Positions 5,970-13,998 of a stretch of 23,200 bases of DNA are shown here, piece after piece. The position numbers and the translations under genes are program-made. This stretch comes from a virus, in the IMG/VR virus record IMGVR_UViG_3300045910_000009, positions 1-23,200 of that record. The stretch is one strand, 5' to 3'. The stretch's first letter is position 1. The number at the start of each line of letters is the position of its first letter. The notes below the pieces were generated by a model. The model was not told the DNA's origin. It saw only the letters and a list, made by a program, of their open reading frames with translations, and searched no databases.

Positions 5970-6710
5970 ATGACTGCAATGTCCAAAGAGAAAACGCGCT
6001 CGTTCGAGCGCTGGACCTATCGCCAGTTTCCGCTGGCGGTGGGAAATAAGGCGTGGAAGCACGCCTCGATCGGTATCGACTTGTCCACTGGCAAGGTCGA
6101 ACCGGCGCACGCCGAATCCGATCTCTTTATCATCGGCGTAGCAGCCGAGACGATCGACGCGACGAGCGTAGAGAAGCTCCTGAACGTCAATCTCGGAACC
6201 GAGATCGAAGTCGAGTGGTGGGCGAACGGAAGCGCGATCGCGGCGACGGATCTCGGCAAGATCTGTTACTTCGCGGACGATCAAACCGTCACGCTCACGG
6301 CGGGTGGTTGCATCGCCGGTCGTATTTGGGCGGTGGACACCGCAAAGGGTGTCGCCGTTCAGAAACTGACAAACTCGCTTCTCAGCGGCGGCGACTCGCC
6401 GCTCGCGGAAGTGGATCCCGGCGCGTTCGCCGCGGGCGATCTCGTGATCGCGGCGTCGCCCGCGAGCGGCGCGGCAATGCCGATTCCCGCCACGGCGGCG
6501 GCGTCGACGGTGACGCTACCAGCGGCGGCAACCGAAGGAACCGTCCTCTACTTCACGGCGGACGGCGTGGCGAACGCGCACACGGTTCAATACCGAGACG
6601 CGACCGGTCCCACGAACCTCACAACGGCGTTGACGGCGCTCAAGCGCCATCTCGTCGTGGCGTTGTTCCTCGGCGGCAAGTGGCGTGCAAACGCCTATGT
6701 CAGTCCCTGA
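5970..6710 (+). CDS. Putative head decoration (capsid cement) protein
   Basis: This 246-residue protein lies between the protease-scaffold and the major capsid genes, the usual place of a decoration protein that binds the capsid shell and stabilises it. The N-terminal half (about 10-130) is predicted to be mainly beta strand, with 'RQFPLAVGNKAWKHASIGID' near the start and 'IAGRIWAVDTAKGVAVQ' later, a pattern seen in phage head decoration proteins. The second half (about 135-246) is Ala/Gly/Pro-rich and may be a separate surface domain. The start is ATG 5970 with a weak GGGA (5959-5962) seven bases upstream; a second in-frame ATG at 5979 is also possible. Function is inferred mainly from position and general fold. 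Confidence 0.6.
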   Translation: MTAMSKEKTRSFERWTYRQFPLAVGNKAWKHASIGIDLSTGKVEPAHAESDLFIIGVAAETIDATSVEKLLNVNLGTEIEVEWWANGSAIAATDLGKICYFADDQTVTLTAGGCIAGRIWAVDTAKGVAVQKLTNSLLSGGDSPLAEVDPGAFAAGDLVIAASPASGAAMPIPATAAASTVTLPAAATEGTVLYFTADGVANAHTVQYRDATGPTNLTTALTALKRHLVVALFLGGKWRANAYVSP

Positions 6711-6749
6711 TCCCTAACAGGGCCTAACACTAAGAAAGGAATCAGGGAC
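6703..6749 (+). promoter_or_regulatory. Inverted repeat enclosing the capsid ribosome binding site
   Basis: GTCCCTGAT (6703-6711) and ATCAGGGAC (6741-6749) are perfect 9-base complements separated by 29 bases. The left arm contains the decoration gene stop codon (TGA 6708-6710). The loop holds the capsid ribosome binding site (AAGAAAGGA, 6732-6740 region), and the right arm ends one base before the capsid ATG. A 4-bp mini-hairpin (CCCT-AAC-AGGG, 6712-6722) sits inside. The repeat is seen directly. That it couples or tunes capsid translation is inference. Confidence 0.55.
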
Positions 6750-6750
6750 C

Positions 6751-7770
6751 ATGCCCGCATTGACACCACAGTTGGTTATGGACGTTGAGTCTCGCATGCA
6801 GATTATCACTGAGCGCGAATACGAGCGGCTCAATGGGAATCTGTGGTGGGACAAGGTTGCGAAGATGCGTCCGAGCACCGGACGCCGCGAAGTTGTGCAA
6901 TGGCTCTTGTCCACTGCACAGATCGTCGATCAACAGAAAGGCGGACAGATCCGCTTCGACGATATCGTGTCGCAATACACGGAGTTTGAAAACAAGTTCA
7001 GCGGCGCCGGCTTGAAGTTGAGCCGTGCGCAACTCGAAGACTCCGACGGCGGCGGACTCGAGCTGTCCAGCCAGTGGAGCGCCGATATCGGCGCGTACAT
7101 GTCCTATTGGCCGCAGAAGCAAACGGCGTTCTTTCTCAAGAATGCTCACACGGCGTCGTTGTTCACCGGGTACGATCAAAAGGCGTTCTTCGCGACCGAT
7201 CACCCGTACAACCCTTACAACGATGCGGCGGGTAGCTACGCGAACCTGCTCACCGGCTCGAACGCGTTCCGGATCGACGACGGTGTCACGCTCGACGTGG
7301 CGCTCGTGAACCTCGGAAAGTTGTTCGCCTATATCGCATCGCTCAAGATGCCAAACGGCGAAGATCCTCGCATGCTGCGCGGAAAGTGGATCTTCTGCAG
7401 TCCGCGTATGTTCCCGCGCGTGGTGCAACTCACGAGCGCGAAGTTCCTCGCTCAAGTGGCGGGAAGCGGCGCCGGCTCGGCGGACGTGGAAGCCGTGATC
7501 AAAGCGCTCGGCTTCGCAACTCCAATCCAGTGCGACGAGCTCGCCGGCTTCGAGTCCGATACAACGTACTTCGTCGGCTGTGAGACGCTATCCACGAGTC
7601 AGCTCGGCGGGATCGTATACTCACAGCGGGAGCCTTACAGGATCAACTACTATGGGACGGTCGATCAAGCGATCCTGTCCCGCGCTCAAGAGCTCGAGTG
7701 GCATTGCCACGGTCGTAATGTGATCGCGCCGGGACACCCGTTCCTGGTCATGAAGTGCCTTCCGACTTGA
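6751..7770 (+). CDS. Major capsid protein, Mu gpT-like
   Basis: This 339-residue protein is the likely major head subunit. It resembles the Mu gpT family: an N-terminal helical stretch with a Trp-rich motif ('LNGNLWWDKVAKM', 28-40), a substrate-like 'SWP/YWPQKQTAFFLKNA' area (119-132), and 'YDQKAFFATDHPYNPYN' (141-157). That last segment matches the gpT signature in which a Tyr-Asp-Gly/Gln turn precedes Phe-Phe and an Asp-His-Pro. It is slightly longer than Mu gpT. The ATG at 6751 has AAAGGA (6735-6740) upstream. It follows the decoration gene and is followed by a strong hairpin, an arrangement common for this most highly expressed gene. Confidence 0.9.
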   Translation: MPALTPQLVMDVESRMQIITEREYERLNGNLWWDKVAKMRPSTGRREVVQWLLSTAQIVDQQKGGQIRFDDIVSQYTEFENKFSGAGLKLSRAQLEDSDGGGLELSSQWSADIGAYMSYWPQKQTAFFLKNAHTASLFTGYDQKAFFATDHPYNPYNDAAGSYANLLTGSNAFRIDDGVTLDVALVNLGKLFAYIASLKMPNGEDPRMLRGKWIFCSPRMFPRVVQLTSAKFLAQVAGSGAGSADVEAVIKALGFATPIQCDELAGFESDTTYFVGCETLSTSQLGGIVYSQREPYRINYYGTVDQAILSRAQELEWHCHGRNVIAPGHPFLVMKCLPT

Positions 7771-7776
7771 GTAGTA

Positions 7777-7820
7777 GAGCGCGCGCCGGTCGCCCGCACC
7801 CTTCCGGCCGGCGCGCGCTC
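7777..7820 (+). terminator. Strong hairpin after the capsid gene (partial terminator or RNA stabiliser)
   Basis: GAGCGCGCGCCGG (7777-7789) pairs perfectly with CCGGCGCGCGCTC (7808-7820) around an 18-base loop, in the 63-base gap after the capsid stop. The 13-bp, almost all G/C stem is the strongest structure found in the window. No T-run follows (the next bases are GGATTGATCTG), so it is not a typical intrinsic terminator. Attenuation of downstream tail genes or protection of the capsid mRNA 3' end are the likely roles. Confidence 0.65.
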
Positions 7821-8726: not shown

Positions 8727-9327
8727 CGTCCTCGCGCTCGAGAATCTCTACGACGCCGTATGCGCGCGCTTCCTGGCCGAAGGTCCGTTCCTACTGCCGT
8801 CGCTCCCGCCCGGCGATCCGACGCCCGCAAACACGCCCGTTCCCAACTTGTTCGGGTGGCGCTTCGTCGCTCAACACCACACGGGATCTCGGATCGTTTG
8901 GGTGCCTGGAAACCCGCTCGGCGTCGCCGGTCGCTACGGTCCGCCACGCAATCCGGGCGGCGAACCTCGCTCACTGTTCACTGTGTTTGAACAGTTCTAC
9001 GTGGTGATCTCGAGCAACGATCCCGCGGCGCCCGAAGACGAGCGGAAGAACTATCACGCGACGCGCATGCTTCACGACTATTGGGCGCGCGCTGTCTATC
9101 TCGCGGCGCACGGCGTTCTAACGCTCGAGTCGCCCGAGTGGATCACCGACAAGCTCGAGCGGCGCTTCGGAACGGCGCTTCGAGTGCTGGGAACCATACA
9201 GGCAACGGTTCCGGACGAGGGTCCGGACGGCCCGCCCTATGTAGACGCTCCGGCCGATACGAAGGCTGAGATCGACGTAACCGAGCTCGATAACACGGAA
9301 CACCTAACAGTGGAGCTAGATCCATGA
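8719..9327 (+). CDS. Putative tail terminator / Mu gp37-like protein
   Basis: This 202-residue protein lies just before the sheath gene, the usual place of the tail terminator or neck protein that caps the tail tube. An N-terminal helix (2-20) is followed by a Pro-rich loop (28-45). A mixed alpha-beta middle includes 'LFTVFEQFYVVISSND' (about 86-101) and 'HATRMLHDYWARAVYLAAHG' (about 112-131), then an acidic C-terminus. A beta strand then helix arrangement of this kind is typical for tail terminators, but I do not recognise a specific signature. GAGG upstream of ATG 8719 supports the start. Function is inferred from gene order. Confidence 0.5.
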   Translation: MASVLALENLYDAVCARFLAEGPFLLPSLPPGDPTPANTPVPNLFGWRFVAQHHTGSRIVWVPGNPLGVAGRYGPPRNPGGEPRSLFTVFEQFYVVISSNDPAAPEDERKNYHATRMLHDYWARAVYLAAHGVLTLESPEWITDKLERRFGTALRVLGTIQATVPDEGPDGPPYVDAPADTKAEIDVTELDNTEHLTVELDP

Positions 9328-10778
9328 CACTACCCGGAGTAACCATTACCGAGCTCGACGGTGCGCTCGGCGTGCTCCCACCGACGACGGGAAAGATGCT
9401 CGCCGTGGTGGGAGTGACAGACACCGGTCCGGTCGCAACGCCCGCCGCATATGGGCGCGTGACTGATCTCGTAGCGGACTTCGGCGCCGGACCCGGAGTC
9501 GAGTCCGCGGCGCGCTACATCCAAGTGCACGGGCGTCCGGTGTTGTTCACCCGCGTAGCGGCGAGTGACAACGGAAGCGTGGGCGCCGTGACTTCGGACG
9601 CGCTCGGCGGAACGAGCGTAGTCACGATCGCCACGTCGCCGACTCCAAACGACGACTACGAGTTTCTATTGAAGATCCTCACTGACGGGACGGTCGGGAC
9701 GGCGGGAATCACTGCACAGATCTCGTACGATGGCGGACGAAGCTTCGGACCGGCGTTCGCGCTCGGAACGGCTGTCACCTACGAGATTCCGGGTGCGGGC
9801 GGCGTGTCGTTCGCGTTCGCCGTCGGAACGCTGAAAGCCGGTGCGACCTACGCCGCTCGAGCGACGGCGCCGGCTCCCGACGCCACCACGCTCGCAACGG
9901 CGTTGACGGCGCTCGGCGCGACGATCGCCGCGTGGGAGATCGCTTTGATGGCGTTCCCGTTGATCGCGGCAACGTTCGACGCGGTGGAAACCGCATTCGC
10001 GAGCTTTTTCACGCGCGGCAAGTATTGCGCGTGGGTGGGCAACACGCGGATTCCAAACGCCGCGGAGTCCGAGTCGTCCTACAAGACCGCGCTCGATACG
10101 ATCTTCTCGGCGAAGACGACGAAGACGGGATCGCTCTACGGCGGCGCGCTGAAAGTCATTTCGTCGGTGAGCGGGCGGCAGTATCGCCGGCCGGTCGCGT
10201 TCGTAACCGGCGCGCTCGAGCAAAGCGTGTCCGAGGAGATCGATATCGCGGACGTGAACCTAGGCGGCTTGATCGGCGTGTCCATTCGCGACGCGAACGG
10301 CAATCCCGACGAGCACGACGAGTCGATCAATCCCGGACTCGACGACAGCCGCTTCGCGACGCTCCGCACGTGGGACGGCTTGTCCGGCGTCTACGTCACG
10401 CGTCCGCGCTTGTTCAGCGCGGAAGGTTCGGACTTCCAACTGATGCCACACCGGCGCGTGCTCAACCTCGCTCACGCGGCGTTGCGCATGTACTTCATTC
10501 GCCGGCTCAACAAACCGATCCGGGTGGACCGAACTTCCGGACTGATTCTCGAGTCCGAAGCGCTCGAGATCGAAGCGGGAGCCACGGCGGCAATGTCCGC
10601 CGTACTCATGGCCAAACCGAAGGCTTCGGGCGTTCAGTTCGTTCTCTCACGCTTCGACAACGTGTTGAGCACGAAGACGCTCACCGGAACGGCGCGCGTG
10701 ATTCCGCTGGCCTACCCGGAATACGTGAACCTCGAAGTCGGATTTTACAACCCGGCGATCACCGTTCAGGCGGCCTAA
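9324..10778 (+). CDS. Contractile tail sheath protein
   Basis: This 484-residue protein is the sheath subunit that contracts during injection, which makes this a myovirus. It begins with 'LPGVTITELDGALGVLPPTTGKMLAVVGVTDTGP' spread over residues 3-36. This is the standard sheath N-terminal strand and handshake domain followed by the 'x-x-x-G-x-x-x-x-G-P' turn. The C-terminal domain has 'WDGLSGVYVTRPRLFSAEG' (around 350-370) and 'DFQLMPHRRVLNLAHAAL', the conserved sheath core, and ends with a beta extension ('YVNLEVGFYNPAITVQ'). GGAG (9312-9315) precedes the ATG. The tube gene follows after 15 bases. The length agrees with Mu gpL. Confidence 0.93.
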   Translation: MTLPGVTITELDGALGVLPPTTGKMLAVVGVTDTGPVATPAAYGRVTDLVADFGAGPGVESAARYIQVHGRPVLFTRVAASDNGSVGAVTSDALGGTSVVTIATSPTPNDDYEFLLKILTDGTVGTAGITAQISYDGGRSFGPAFALGTAVTYEIPGAGGVSFAFAVGTLKAGATYAARATAPAPDATTLATALTALGATIAAWEIALMAFPLIAATFDAVETAFASFFTRGKYCAWVGNTRIPNAAESESSYKTALDTIFSAKTTKTGSLYGGALKVISSVSGRQYRRPVAFVTGALEQSVSEEIDIADVNLGGLIGVSIRDANGNPDEHDESINPGLDDSRFATLRTWDGLSGVYVTRPRLFSAEGSDFQLMPHRRVLNLAHAALRMYFIRRLNKPIRVDRTSGLILESEALEIEAGATAAMSAVLMAKPKASGVQFVLSRFDNVLSTKTLTGTARVIPLAYPEYVNLEVGFYNPAITVQAA

Positions 10779-10793
10779 CAGGAGCACACGTCA

Positions 10794-11273
10794 ATGTCTG
10801 ATAACATCAGAGTGAACGGTAACCAACTGTCGTGGGGATCGATCGAGCTCAAGATCGATCTCGAGCGCTTCACCGGTTTCACGTCGATCTCGTTCGCGGA
10901 CAAGCGCGAACGCGTGAAGGCGTACGGTATGACGCGCCACCACGCGCCGCGCGGACGCTCGCGCGGCAAGTACACGATCGAGCCGGTAAAGCTCGTCGGG
11001 TGGAAGTCCAGCGTTCAGGCGCTGAGACAGGGACTCGCGGCGCGCTCGAAGGACGGGATCTCCTACGGTGACGTAGAGTTTCAAATCATGGTGAGCTACG
11101 TGGAAGCCGACGAGCTTCCGCTCACCGTCGAGATCGATCGGTGCGTGTGGGGCGGCAATAGCTCGTCCGACGAGGAAAGCGCCGATCCCTTGAAGGAAGA
11201 GATCGAGATCGACGCAATGCTCATTCGGCGGAACGGACTCGTGTTGTTCGATTCGTCCGAAGGTGCGCCCTAA
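10794..11273 (+). CDS. Tail tube protein
   Basis: This 159-residue protein follows the sheath directly, as tail tube genes do. It is mostly beta strand, with 'NQLSWGSIELKIDLERFTGFTSISF' across 10-34 and 'YGDVEFQIMVSYVEADELPLTVEIDRC' across 92-118. This fits the two-layer tube barrel that stacks in hexameric rings inside the sheath. The C-terminus ends with an acidic segment and a beta strand ('IEIDAMLIRRNGLVLF'). AGGAG (10780-10784) is a good ribosome site nine bases before ATG 10794. The assignment relies on the sheath-tube-chaperone-tape measure order, which is highly conserved, plus the predicted fold and length. Confidence 0.85.
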   Translation: MSDNIRVNGNQLSWGSIELKIDLERFTGFTSISFADKRERVKAYGMTRHHAPRGRSRGKYTIEPVKLVGWKSSVQALRQGLAARSKDGISYGDVEFQIMVSYVEADELPLTVEIDRCVWGGNSSSDEESADPLKEEIEIDAMLIRRNGLVLFDSSEGAP

Positions 11274-11289: not shown

Positions 11290-11751
11290 GTGACACCAGC
11301 CAAACCACAGACCGATTCCACGCTCGACAGCGAGCTCGCTCAAGTCAGATCGGAGCGAGCTCGCGTGCTCGAGCAACGCGAAGCGCGTTTGCGCGCGGGC
11401 GAAGCCGCCGCACAACTCGCGGAGGAAAAGCTCAACCTCGCGAACGAGCAAGCCGTCGAAGCCGCCGAGATCGAACACGGTCCGGTCGGAACGAAGATCG
11501 CTCTAGTTCACACGTCGCTCGGCGTCGTGATCGTGAAGCGCCCGCACGTCGCCACGTTTCGGAAGTTTCAGGATCGCGGCAAGACAGAGTCTAAGTATTT
11601 GCTCGAATACGTTCGACCCTGTCTCGTGTATCCGACGCTCCCGGAGTACGAGCGGATTTGCGACGAAGAACCGGCGACGCTCGCCCGGTGCGCAAGCGCG
11701 TTGCACACGCTCGCGGGTGTGCGGCTCGAGGAGATTTCGGGAAAACCCTAG
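11290..11751 (+). CDS. Tail assembly chaperone, short product (lambda G / Mu gp41 position)
   Basis: This 153-residue protein lies between tube and tape measure, where phages encode the tail assembly chaperone. Residues 8-60 are a long charged helix rich in Glu, Ala, Arg and Leu, likely coiled-coil. After it comes a compact domain ('TKIALVHTSLGVVIVKRPHV', about 70-90, and 'YVRPCLVYPTLPEYERICDEEPATL', about 108-133). The start is GTG 11290, seven bases after GAAAGGA (11276-11282). The gene ends at a slippery heptamer that shifts some ribosomes into an extension in the -1 frame. The long N-terminal helix is unusual for such a protein. The function is well supported by the frameshift site and position. 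Confidence 0.82.
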   Translation: MTPAKPQTDSTLDSELAQVRSERARVLEQREARLRAGEAAAQLAEEKLNLANEQAVEAAEIEHGPVGTKIALVHTSLGVVIVKRPHVATFRKFQDRGKTESKYLLEYVRPCLVYPTLPEYERICDEEPATLARCASALHTLAGVRLEEISGKP

Positions 11752-11933
11752 AGTTGTACCGGGCGAGCCGTGACAGAGTCGGTGTCGCCGCTACGTGTCT
11801 ACTAGCTGCATTCGGACACCGCCCGGACAAATCCGACGAGCGAGAAGCGGAAGCCTACGCGGGGATCCTGCTCTTACTCGACGCGCTCATAGAGCTTCGA
11901 AACATCCGTAAGGCGCTCACAACGACGAGCTAG
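11290..11933 (+). CDS. Tail assembly chaperone, frameshifted long product (G-T type)
   Basis: Ribosomes slipping by -1 at 11739-11745 read the first 152 residues of the chaperone, through GGA-AAA. They then continue at 11745 as 'TLELYRASRDRVG' and so on to the TAG at 11931-11933, giving a 214-residue fusion with a 62-residue C-terminal domain. The extension is helical ('SDEREAEAYAGILLLLDALIELRNIRKAL'). In lambda, the G part binds the tape measure and the T part recruits tube subunits, and the G to GT ratio is set by the slip rate. The second frame has no plausible start of its own near the junction, which supports expression by frameshifting. The tape measure gene follows four bases after the stop. 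Confidence 0.85.
11728..11789 (+). promoter_or_regulatory. Programmed -1 ribosomal frameshift site
   Basis: GGGAAAA at 11739-11745 is read as G-GGA-AAA in the chaperone frame, an exact X-XXY-YYZ slippery heptamer and one base from the lambda G site (GGGAAAG). The zero-frame stop TAG (11749-11751) comes one codon after it, and the -1 frame is open to 11931. A Shine-Dalgarno-like GAGGAG (11728-11733) lies just upstream, and an imperfect hairpin (GGCGA 11762-11766 with TCGCC 11785-11789, plus inner pairs) lies downstream. Both are kinds of elements known to stimulate slipping. Only the heptamer and frames are certain. Confidence 0.88.
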
Positions 11934-11937
11934 GGCT

Positions 11938-13998
11938 ATGGCGGGCGACACTACCAGCTGGACAGTCAATATGGAGGACGGCGTCACCGACGCCGCCACG
12001 AGCGCCGCGGACGCGCTCGCCAAGCTCGACGCTCAGATCGCCGCGGACACGAAAGCGCTCGCCGGAATGAACAAGGCTATGAAGGTTCTACAGAGCGGAA
12101 GCTCGGTGAACGTCGACGCCTACCGGAAGCTGAACGCGCAAATGGTTGCGACGAAGGCGCGTCTCATAGACAACCAACAACAGTCGATCGCGCTCGGCGG
12201 CTCGTTCACCACAGCAAAGAAGAGTAGCGGCGGACTCGTCGAGAAGCTGAAACAGATCGTCGACAAACAAGCCGAAGTGAAGCCACCCGACAAGCTCGAG
12301 TCGTTTACGAAGTCGCTCGACGGCTTGCAGAAAACCGCGGGCGCCGTCCCGGGTCCGCTCGGACAGCTCGCAAGTTGGCTCGGTAGACTCAAGACGTTGA
12401 TCGGTGGCGGACTCGTCGCCGCGATTCTCGCGATAGCGGCGGCGCTCGTCGCCGTGACGGTCGCAACGATCGCCGCGGGTAAAGCGCTCTACGACTACGG
12501 CAAAGCGCAAGCCGAAGCGCGGCGTAACGAGCTGCTACGGCTCGAAGGCTTGACGAAGCTTCGTTTCATGTATCAGCGCGTGAAAGGCAACGCGAAGGAA
12601 ATGCAAGACGCGATCGATCGCGTGGCGGCGTCGACTCCGGCGAGCCGTGATTCGATCGCGAAGTACGAGACGCAACTCTACCGTATGGGCCTTCGCGGCG
12701 CCGCGCTCACGAAGACGCTCGAAGCCGTGTCTATCAAGCTCGCCGTGCAAGGCGAGGAAGCCGCGAACGCGTTCGCCGGGTGGGCGGCGGGCGCGAACAT
12801 GTCAGGTCAAGGCGTCGATCGACTCGTGAACCGAGTGAAAAACGAGCTCGGTCCGACGGCTAAGCAAATGATGGTGTCGAGCGAGGTGCAGGCGCAGAAG
12901 CTCAAAGAGTCTTGGAATGCACTCTTCGCCGGGATCAAAATGGACAAATACTTGTCCGCGTGGGCGGAAGTGAACGACCAGATCAGTCAGAACACGGCGG
13001 CGGGACGTGCGCTGAAGTCCGTACTCACGGCGGCGCTGCAACCGTTCTACGATCTCAGTGGCAAGGGTGCGCCGCTCGTAAAGCGCTTCATACAAGGAAT
13101 GGTGCTCGCACTTCTCGATCTCGCAATCGAGGTGGTAAAGCTTCGTCGCGAGTTTCGTAAGACCTTCGGCGAAGGCTCACTGTTCGACGGCTTAGGCGAA
13201 GGCACGGCGGCAGTAGTAACCGCGAAGCTCGCTTTCAAGGCGTTCTTCTATGTGATGAAAACCCTAGTCGCGCCCGTGTGGGACGTAATCAAAGCGTTCT
13301 TCGCAATCTACACATTGCTCGAAGACGCGGGCGATATCATCGGCCGTGTTGTCAACTGGTTTAGGCTGCTGTTCAAAGACGTTAGTCTCGTGTCGCCCAC
13401 GCTCGCAAAGGCGCTCGGCTTCCTACGCCAAAAGCTTTCCGAACTGTGGACCTATATCCAGGAGCTGTTAGGCGCGAGCTCGATCGGAAAGTTCCTACTC
13501 GAGACAATCGATGTATGGGTGGACTTCGGAAAATCGATCGTGAAGGGAATCATAAAGGGGATCTCAGCTGTCGCCAAAACTGACATGGGACACGTAATGA
13601 AAGAGCTCGCTATGGATGCTGTGAGCTCGTTCAAAGACTTCCTAGGAATCTACTCGCCGTCCGTGGTGTTTGCGCAACTGGGTAAAGAGATCCCCGCGGG
13701 CGTCGCCGAAGGCGTCGACGAAAACGCCCCCGCCGCACAGCAAGCCACGGAGCACATGGTAGATGCCGCGGCGACTATGCCCGATCTCGGCGGCATGCCG
13801 AAGGCGGGCGGCTCGCTCGCGGGCGGCGGCAAAGCTGCAGCTAAGAGCGGCGGCAAGCCGGGCGGTAAGAGCGTGACGATCGAGACGCTGAACGTCTACG
13901 CGCAATCGAACGATCCGAAGGGGATGGCGCTCGACATTCGCCGCGAGCTCGAGTCTGTGCTCGAAGGACTCGCCGTCGAGATTGGAGCGCCCGCGTGA
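11938..13998 (+). CDS. Tape measure protein
   Basis: This 686-residue protein is the likely tape measure, which sets tail length and is expelled ahead of DNA. The N-terminal 150 residues are helical and rich in Lys, Gln and Ala. Residues 155-182 form a Gly/Ala/Val-rich hydrophobic segment ('LIGGGLVAAILAIAAALVAV'), with further hydrophobic helices around 385-480, as tape measures have. Near 565-610, 'FLGIYSPSVVFAQLGKEIPAGVAEGV' matches the conserved tape-measure motif 'SPS-x-x-F-x-x-hG-x-x-h-x-x-G-h-x-x-G'. A Gly/Lys-rich linker and a short beta-helix domain end the protein. At about 1.5 angstrom per helical residue it would measure a tail of roughly 100 nm. The ATG lies four bases after the chaperone fusion stop. 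Confidence 0.92.
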   Translation: MAGDTTSWTVNMEDGVTDAATSAADALAKLDAQIAADTKALAGMNKAMKVLQSGSSVNVDAYRKLNAQMVATKARLIDNQQQSIALGGSFTTAKKSSGGLVEKLKQIVDKQAEVKPPDKLESFTKSLDGLQKTAGAVPGPLGQLASWLGRLKTLIGGGLVAAILAIAAALVAVTVATIAAGKALYDYGKAQAEARRNELLRLEGLTKLRFMYQRVKGNAKEMQDAIDRVAASTPASRDSIAKYETQLYRMGLRGAALTKTLEAVSIKLAVQGEEAANAFAGWAAGANMSGQGVDRLVNRVKNELGPTAKQMMVSSEVQAQKLKESWNALFAGIKMDKYLSAWAEVNDQISQNTAAGRALKSVLTAALQPFYDLSGKGAPLVKRFIQGMVLALLDLAIEVVKLRREFRKTFGEGSLFDGLGEGTAAVVTAKLAFKAFFYVMKTLVAPVWDVIKAFFAIYTLLEDAGDIIGRVVNWFRLLFKDVSLVSPTLAKALGFLRQKLSELWTYIQELLGASSIGKFLLETIDVWVDFGKSIVKGIIKGISAVAKTDMGHVMKELAMDAVSSFKDFLGIYSPSVVFAQLGKEIPAGVAEGVDENAPAAQQATEHMVDAAATMPDLGGMPKAGGSLAGGGKAAAKSGGKPGGKSVTIETLNVYAQSNDPKGMALDIRRELESVLEGLAVEIGAPA

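Follow-up and report, generated by a model that had tools for sequence, protein, structure and literature searches.

A probable −1 programmed frameshift in the tail assembly chaperone gene of a family of contractile-tail phages

Directly before the tape measure gene of a viral contig, two overlapping reading frames very probably encode a tail assembly chaperone pair of the lambda G/GT type, produced by a −1 slip of the ribosome near the end of the first frame. The initial annotation of this DNA had proposed a −1 programmed frameshift joining the halves of such a chaperone, and that proposal is supported by 71 relatives, in which both the slip site and the second frame are conserved. The frameshift signal, a conserved and selected second frame, the lack of starts in that frame, and conserved elements upstream and downstream of the signal were all obtained here. 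Frameshifts of this kind have long been known; the family is not so named in the libraries searched. The window, i.e., the whole stretch of DNA under study, is a 23.2 kb viral contig. Its own features are not striking when taken by themselves, and the case for frameshifting rests on conservation in relatives.

The slip site and its place among the tail genes

All features described here lie on the + strand. The window carries genes for a Mu-like head (Portal_Mu, gpT), followed by a DUF2586 tail sheath gene (9324..10778), a probable tail tube gene (10794..11273), the G and T frames, and a tape measure gene with PHROG tape measure matches (11938..13998). The name given to the tube gene rests on its position between sheath and chaperone, which is kept in relatives, because its sole PHROG match is phrog_9206, named major head protein. 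With the tube named in this way, G and T lie between tube and tape measure genes, as expected for a lambda-type G/GT locus.

The zero-frame open reading frame, G (11290..11751), begins with GTG, encodes 153 aa, and ends GAG GAG ATT TCG GGA AAA CCC TAG. The heptamer G GGA AAA (11739..11745), read directly from these letters, is in the X_XXY_YYZ phase, and its P- and A-site codons can both re-pair in the −1 frame; in relatives the slip codon is AAA or AAG. The stop codon TAG (11749..11751) lies one codon beyond. From 11745 the −1 frame, T (11745..11933), reads TLELYR and stays open for 62 residues to a TAG at 11931-11933, just 5′ of the tape measure start at 11938. The phase of the heptamer at the end of the first frame, the distance to the stop, the 62-residue frame reaching up to the tape measure gene, and the single-base difference from the lambda heptamer (G_GGA_AAG) had all been stated in the initial annotation, and all of them hold. 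Its description of the site as “textbook” suits the window’s own heptamer but not the family, in which the stop is usually adjacent, TGA is excluded and the first codon is often non-slippery.

Two features were rejected as evidence, as both are ordinary in the GC-rich DNA here: the number of heptamers and the length of the open −1 frame. GGGAAAA occurs three times in the window, against 2.15 expected, and by our own arithmetic the other two copies (at 1035 and 14455) lie in the wrong phase of the genes that contain them. Of 597 other gene ends in the loci compared, 373 also have a −1 frame open for at least 58 codons.

An AlphaFold model of G (pLDDT 93) was compared with the PDB by Foldseek, with 3fgx, an uncharacterised protein of Bacillus stearothermophilus, as first match (prob 1.00) and 2ob9, the tail assembly chaperone of HK97, as second (prob 0.30), all matches having E >0.001; several of the viral-model matches are named tail assembly chaperones. 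The model may resemble HK97-type tail chaperones, although no library names the family so: neither G nor T matched a tail assembly chaperone above threshold in any HMM library. The best matches of members of the G family are the LIC_10177 family NF047505 (29 of 52), phrog_5128 (26) and DUF6848 (11), for all of which function is unstated; the G homologues of the phages Mx4, MMP17 and Riverbug also match NF047505, an NCBIfam entry, with scores that fall short of its cut-off. The window’s own G matches none of NF047505, phrog_5128 and DUF6848. Searches of phages by tblastn with the G of three members, and of plasmids with the Meiothermus homologue, found nothing, a PDB sequence search with the G profile gave no match, and family searches gave no lambda-like match. 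In Meiothermus phage MMP7 the homologue carries an XkdN-like annotation; window G differs from the HK97 and XkdN-like proteins in a long N-terminal helix (residues 8-63), and the match scores are weak. This helix (window 11311-11478) is predicted to run for more than 50 residues and precedes the chaperone-like portion of the protein; the Thermus and Myxococcus homologues of G are shorter proteins.

Conservation of the slip site and the second frame

Using the sheath protein and its alignment as queries, scans yielded 71 further distinct loci with the same gene, giving 72 with the window, which owing to kinship amount to fewer than 72 independent observations. In the 71 other loci the G homologue is syntenic, lying between tail tube and tape measure. 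The gene ends at a lysine slip codon in 72 of 72 loci, this codon being AAA in 69 and AAG in three (68 and three of the 71 relatives), against an AAA share of 27% among lysine codons of the same loci. A slippery site in phase and a second frame open to the tape measure gene are likewise present in every locus, and a homologous −1 frame runs on for 58-73 codons past the stop. Conservation of slip site and second frame had been named as a check on the frameshift, and both are kept in the 71 relatives; in none of them is the second frame disrupted or a separate gene with a conserved start, an outcome that would have spoken against it. One relative (L151) is a prophage locus in the isolate chromosome of Sorangium cellulosum So ceGT47. 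Some loci differ in neighboring genes: about 0.9 kb, probably an inserted gene, separates tail tube and chaperone gene in L027 (7975-8938), where other loci have much less, and in L057, L060 and L066 (around 6001-7800) the match between sheath and query is split in two and covers a longer span, which suggests an extra or duplicated domain.

The second frame behaves as a protein. Homologues of T align from the slip codon on, with the first 25-28 residues almost free of gaps, and NG86 dN/dS values of 0.04-0.25 in the closest pairs demonstrate that the frame is under purifying selection; only close pairs were used, the all-pair medians (about 0.57 for T, 0.61 for G) being inflated by saturation. 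The model of T has three helices (pLDDT 94), and a fold search with it returned no meaningful match.

The position of the stop codon and the identity of the codon before the lysine codon set this family apart. As in lambda, the proposed −1 shift lies close to where the first frame ends, and the gene precedes that for the tape measure protein. Unlike in lambda, 61 of 72 loci have the stop immediately behind the slip codon; in the remaining 11, the window among them, a single codon intervenes. These stops are TAG in 54 loci, TAA in 18 and TGA in none, whereas the 605 other open reading frames of the same loci end in TGA (440), TAA (119) or TAG (46). An adjacent TGA would read ATG in the −1 frame, behind a Shine-Dalgarno (SD)-like element, and the preference for TAG over TAA may in part reflect which amino acids are favored at T residues 2-3. 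The P codon is GGA in 44 loci, GCA in 10, AAA in eight, GAA in seven, TCA in two and GGG in one; it thus ends in A in 71 of 72, while in the background 11% of glycine codons are GGA and 13% of alanine codons are GCA. As heptamers, GGGAAAA is found in the window and 39 other loci, AAAAAAA in eight, and the exact lambda site GGGAAAG in three relatives. The 12 loci with GCA or TCA have P codons unable to re-pair in the −1 frame. A phylogeny built from the G and T proteins joined together requires about eight changes to account for such codons, at least five of them on well-supported branches, and L033 and L041, with near-identical proteins, have GGA and TCA, respectively. All 12 have an adjacent stop; a phylogenetic pair test of whether they need one was without power. 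The lasting core is A_AAA, with A_AAG in three loci and G_AAA in L150 as exceptions. A core of A_AAA followed by UAR suggests slippage of tRNA-Lys with a stop codon beside it. What is new at the level of the family is the adjacency of the stop, the complete avoidance of TGA and a variable P codon that includes GCA and TCA.

Stimulatory elements and alternative explanations

Stimulation of the slip from both sides had been proposed, and the upstream half of that proposal stands. The SD-like GAGGAG claimed five bases upstream is present (11728..11733, 5 nt before the heptamer) and is a family feature: predicted pairing to the anti-SD peaks sharply in a 9-nt segment starting 12 nt before the heptamer, with a family mean of −7.5 kcal/mol. 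Compared with synonymous shuffles the excess is modest (mean −8.25 vs. −6.66 kcal/mol, median rank 0.34), and the element may be partly a consequence of the encoded residues. The downstream half fared differently. The imperfect hairpin claimed about 16 bases downstream in the window is unsupported as a selected feature, as downstream stability there is not above that of synonymous sequences in which the peptide is left unchanged (z +0.6 to +0.9).

A different, long stem is nevertheless found across the family, though it is unsupported in the window itself. It comprises nine pairs between bases 6-14 and 58-66 after the heptamer; the corresponding arms in the window (11751..11759 and 11803..11811) are degenerate, retaining 5/9 pairs. 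The register was picked by eye from single-sequence folds and then tested by slides, shuffles, arm swaps and synonymous resampling. In a gapless alignment of 34 sequences, 84.6% of cells were paired, against 77.3% after shuffling and 26-47% in slid registers, and covariation was seen at six pairs that had changed on both sides. These sequences were picked partly for gapless fit, and the controls on 70 loci weigh most: pairing at the six core positions exceeded all 500 synonymous resamplings and all 1000 between-locus arm swaps. RNAalifold found no consensus structure on 72 sequences.

Three other explanations of the overlapping frames can be set against programmed frameshifting, all of them improbable. 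The least improbable, still very unlikely, is that T forms a small gene in its own right, translated after termination at TAG 11749 either by re-initiation or from a start of its own. The window offers a candidate start in TTG 11754..11756, codon 4 of the −1 frame and the only start-like codon in T, which begins 3 nt after the stop with GAGGAG about 20 nt before it, and the annotation of Mx4 treats the T homologue as an independent gene that starts internally. The earlier statement that T has “no start of its own” is therefore nearly right rather than exact. This TTG is not conserved, most relatives having a CTN leucine codon there; 56 of 72 loci have no ATG, GTG or TTG in T codons 1-12, six have none anywhere in T, and no locus has one in the ten codons upstream. 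Leaving the window’s TTG aside, the second frame is conserved as a protein without a start, as in lambda-type G/GT. A separate gene would also fit poorly with homology that begins at the slip codon itself, and re-initiation leaves the conservation of AAA and the preceding A unexplained. The arrangement A_AAA-TGA, which would supply a −1 ATG, occurs in no locus, though TGA is the usual stop.

Slippage of RNA polymerase on a run of A’s, rather than of the ribosome, is even less probable. A few relatives do have runs of seven A’s or more (the AAAAAAA heptamer, eight loci), but the slip site holds only four in the window and the other 39 GGGAAAA loci, a run shorter than those usually held to cause RNA polymerase slippage, and the conserved SD-like and stem elements point to the ribosome. 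That the −1 frame is the decayed end of a once continuous gene, or an assembly error, has a negligible probability and is already refuted by conservation: the same arrangement recurs in 72 loci from many assemblies, including the isolate genome of So ceGT47, and dN/dS of T is low in close pairs.

Proposed mechanism and relation to known systems

In a −1 frameshifting mechanism, most ribosomes would terminate at TAG 11749 to give G, 153 aa, and a minority would slip one base back at G_GGA_AAA (11739-11745) to give GT, with 152 + 62 residues joined as EISGK-TLELYR. The ribosome is probably held by the SD-like GAGGAG upstream and, in most relatives, probably also by the long stem from 6 nt downstream. 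The essential event would be slippage of tRNA-Lys on A_AAA, with re-pairing of the P-site tRNA dispensable in some relatives. By analogy with lambda, where the chaperone roles of gpG and gpGT have been reviewed (PMC5009743), G would form a coat on the tape measure protein, and tail tube subunits would be brought in by the T domain; for that reason the GT:G ratio would matter for tail assembly. We infer the slippage itself, its rate, the ratio of the two proteins and these chaperone roles. The phage here differs from lambda in its contractile tail and Mu-like head.

Homologous arrangements occur in other phages. Mx4 (p57/p58), the Thermus phage Riverbug and the Meiothermus phages MMP7 and MMP17 have homologous sheath and G proteins and a T-like second frame. 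In the cultured Myxococcus phage Mx4 (L071 7136-7683), p57 and p58 are annotated as separate genes; they are probably G and T of one frameshifted chaperone, with a −1 shift at A_AAA_AAA, and differ in that the stop is TGA, two codons further on. In MMP17 and Riverbug (L069 7866-8331; L070 6856-7318), the T-like frame is in +1 (= −2) relative to G, and each overlap contains TTT C; a +1 (or −2) frame would mean that the direction of the shift has changed within the chaperone family.

Both parts of the A_AAA-UAR core have precedents. Z_ZZN tetramers are known −1 sites in IS elements and, at CGA_AAG, in B. subtilis cytidine deaminase and IS1222, and A_AAR slippage without P-site re-pairing has been described (PMC5009743, PMC4066793). 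In E. coli, A_AAG is the strongest of the tetramers and A_AAA is weak (PMC4066793, PMC5009743), the bare A_AAA tetramer being the weakest among stimulator-responsive motifs (PMC4066793); GCA- and TCA-AAA sites may therefore give little shifting except in a favorable context. A stop codon immediately following a −1 slip site has been described for Rous sarcoma virus and barley yellow dwarf virus (PMC4373837). Here the two are combined in one phage gene family, with UAR only. The slip codon is AAG in lambda and AAA in most loci here. S. cellulosum So ceGT47 has tRNA-Lys anticodons UUU and CUU; AAG could then be decoded by the CUU tRNA, a poor partner for AAA, and this may underlie the preference for AAA here as opposed to the AAG used by lambda in E. 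coli.

A tentative and rather doubtful extension is that the functional unit is A_AAA-UAR and not the heptamer, such that peptidyl-tRNA-Lys(UUU) slips −1 with UAG or UAA in the A site, in competition with RF1. If this were true, the GT:G ratio would depend on RF1 activity, and TGA would be avoided because of the −1 ATG behind the SD-like element, because an RF1-readable stop is needed, or both. The site would correspond, in the minus-one direction, to the stop-coupled frameshift of prfB, and the window, where CCC separates AAA from TAG, would represent a variant that lacks the adjacent stop.

Overall, these results point to recoded tail assembly chaperones of contractile-tail phages as the probable role of a family of unstated function, whose members match NF047505, phrog_5128 and DUF6848. 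They also reveal a 62-residue protein half that gene callers would omit or give a false start. The natural variation of the family, with about eight changes of the P codon, a constant preference for AAA, an adjacent stop and no TGA, is a ready-made mutational series for identifying the slipping tRNA at bacterial −1 sites and for probing whether there is competition from release factors.
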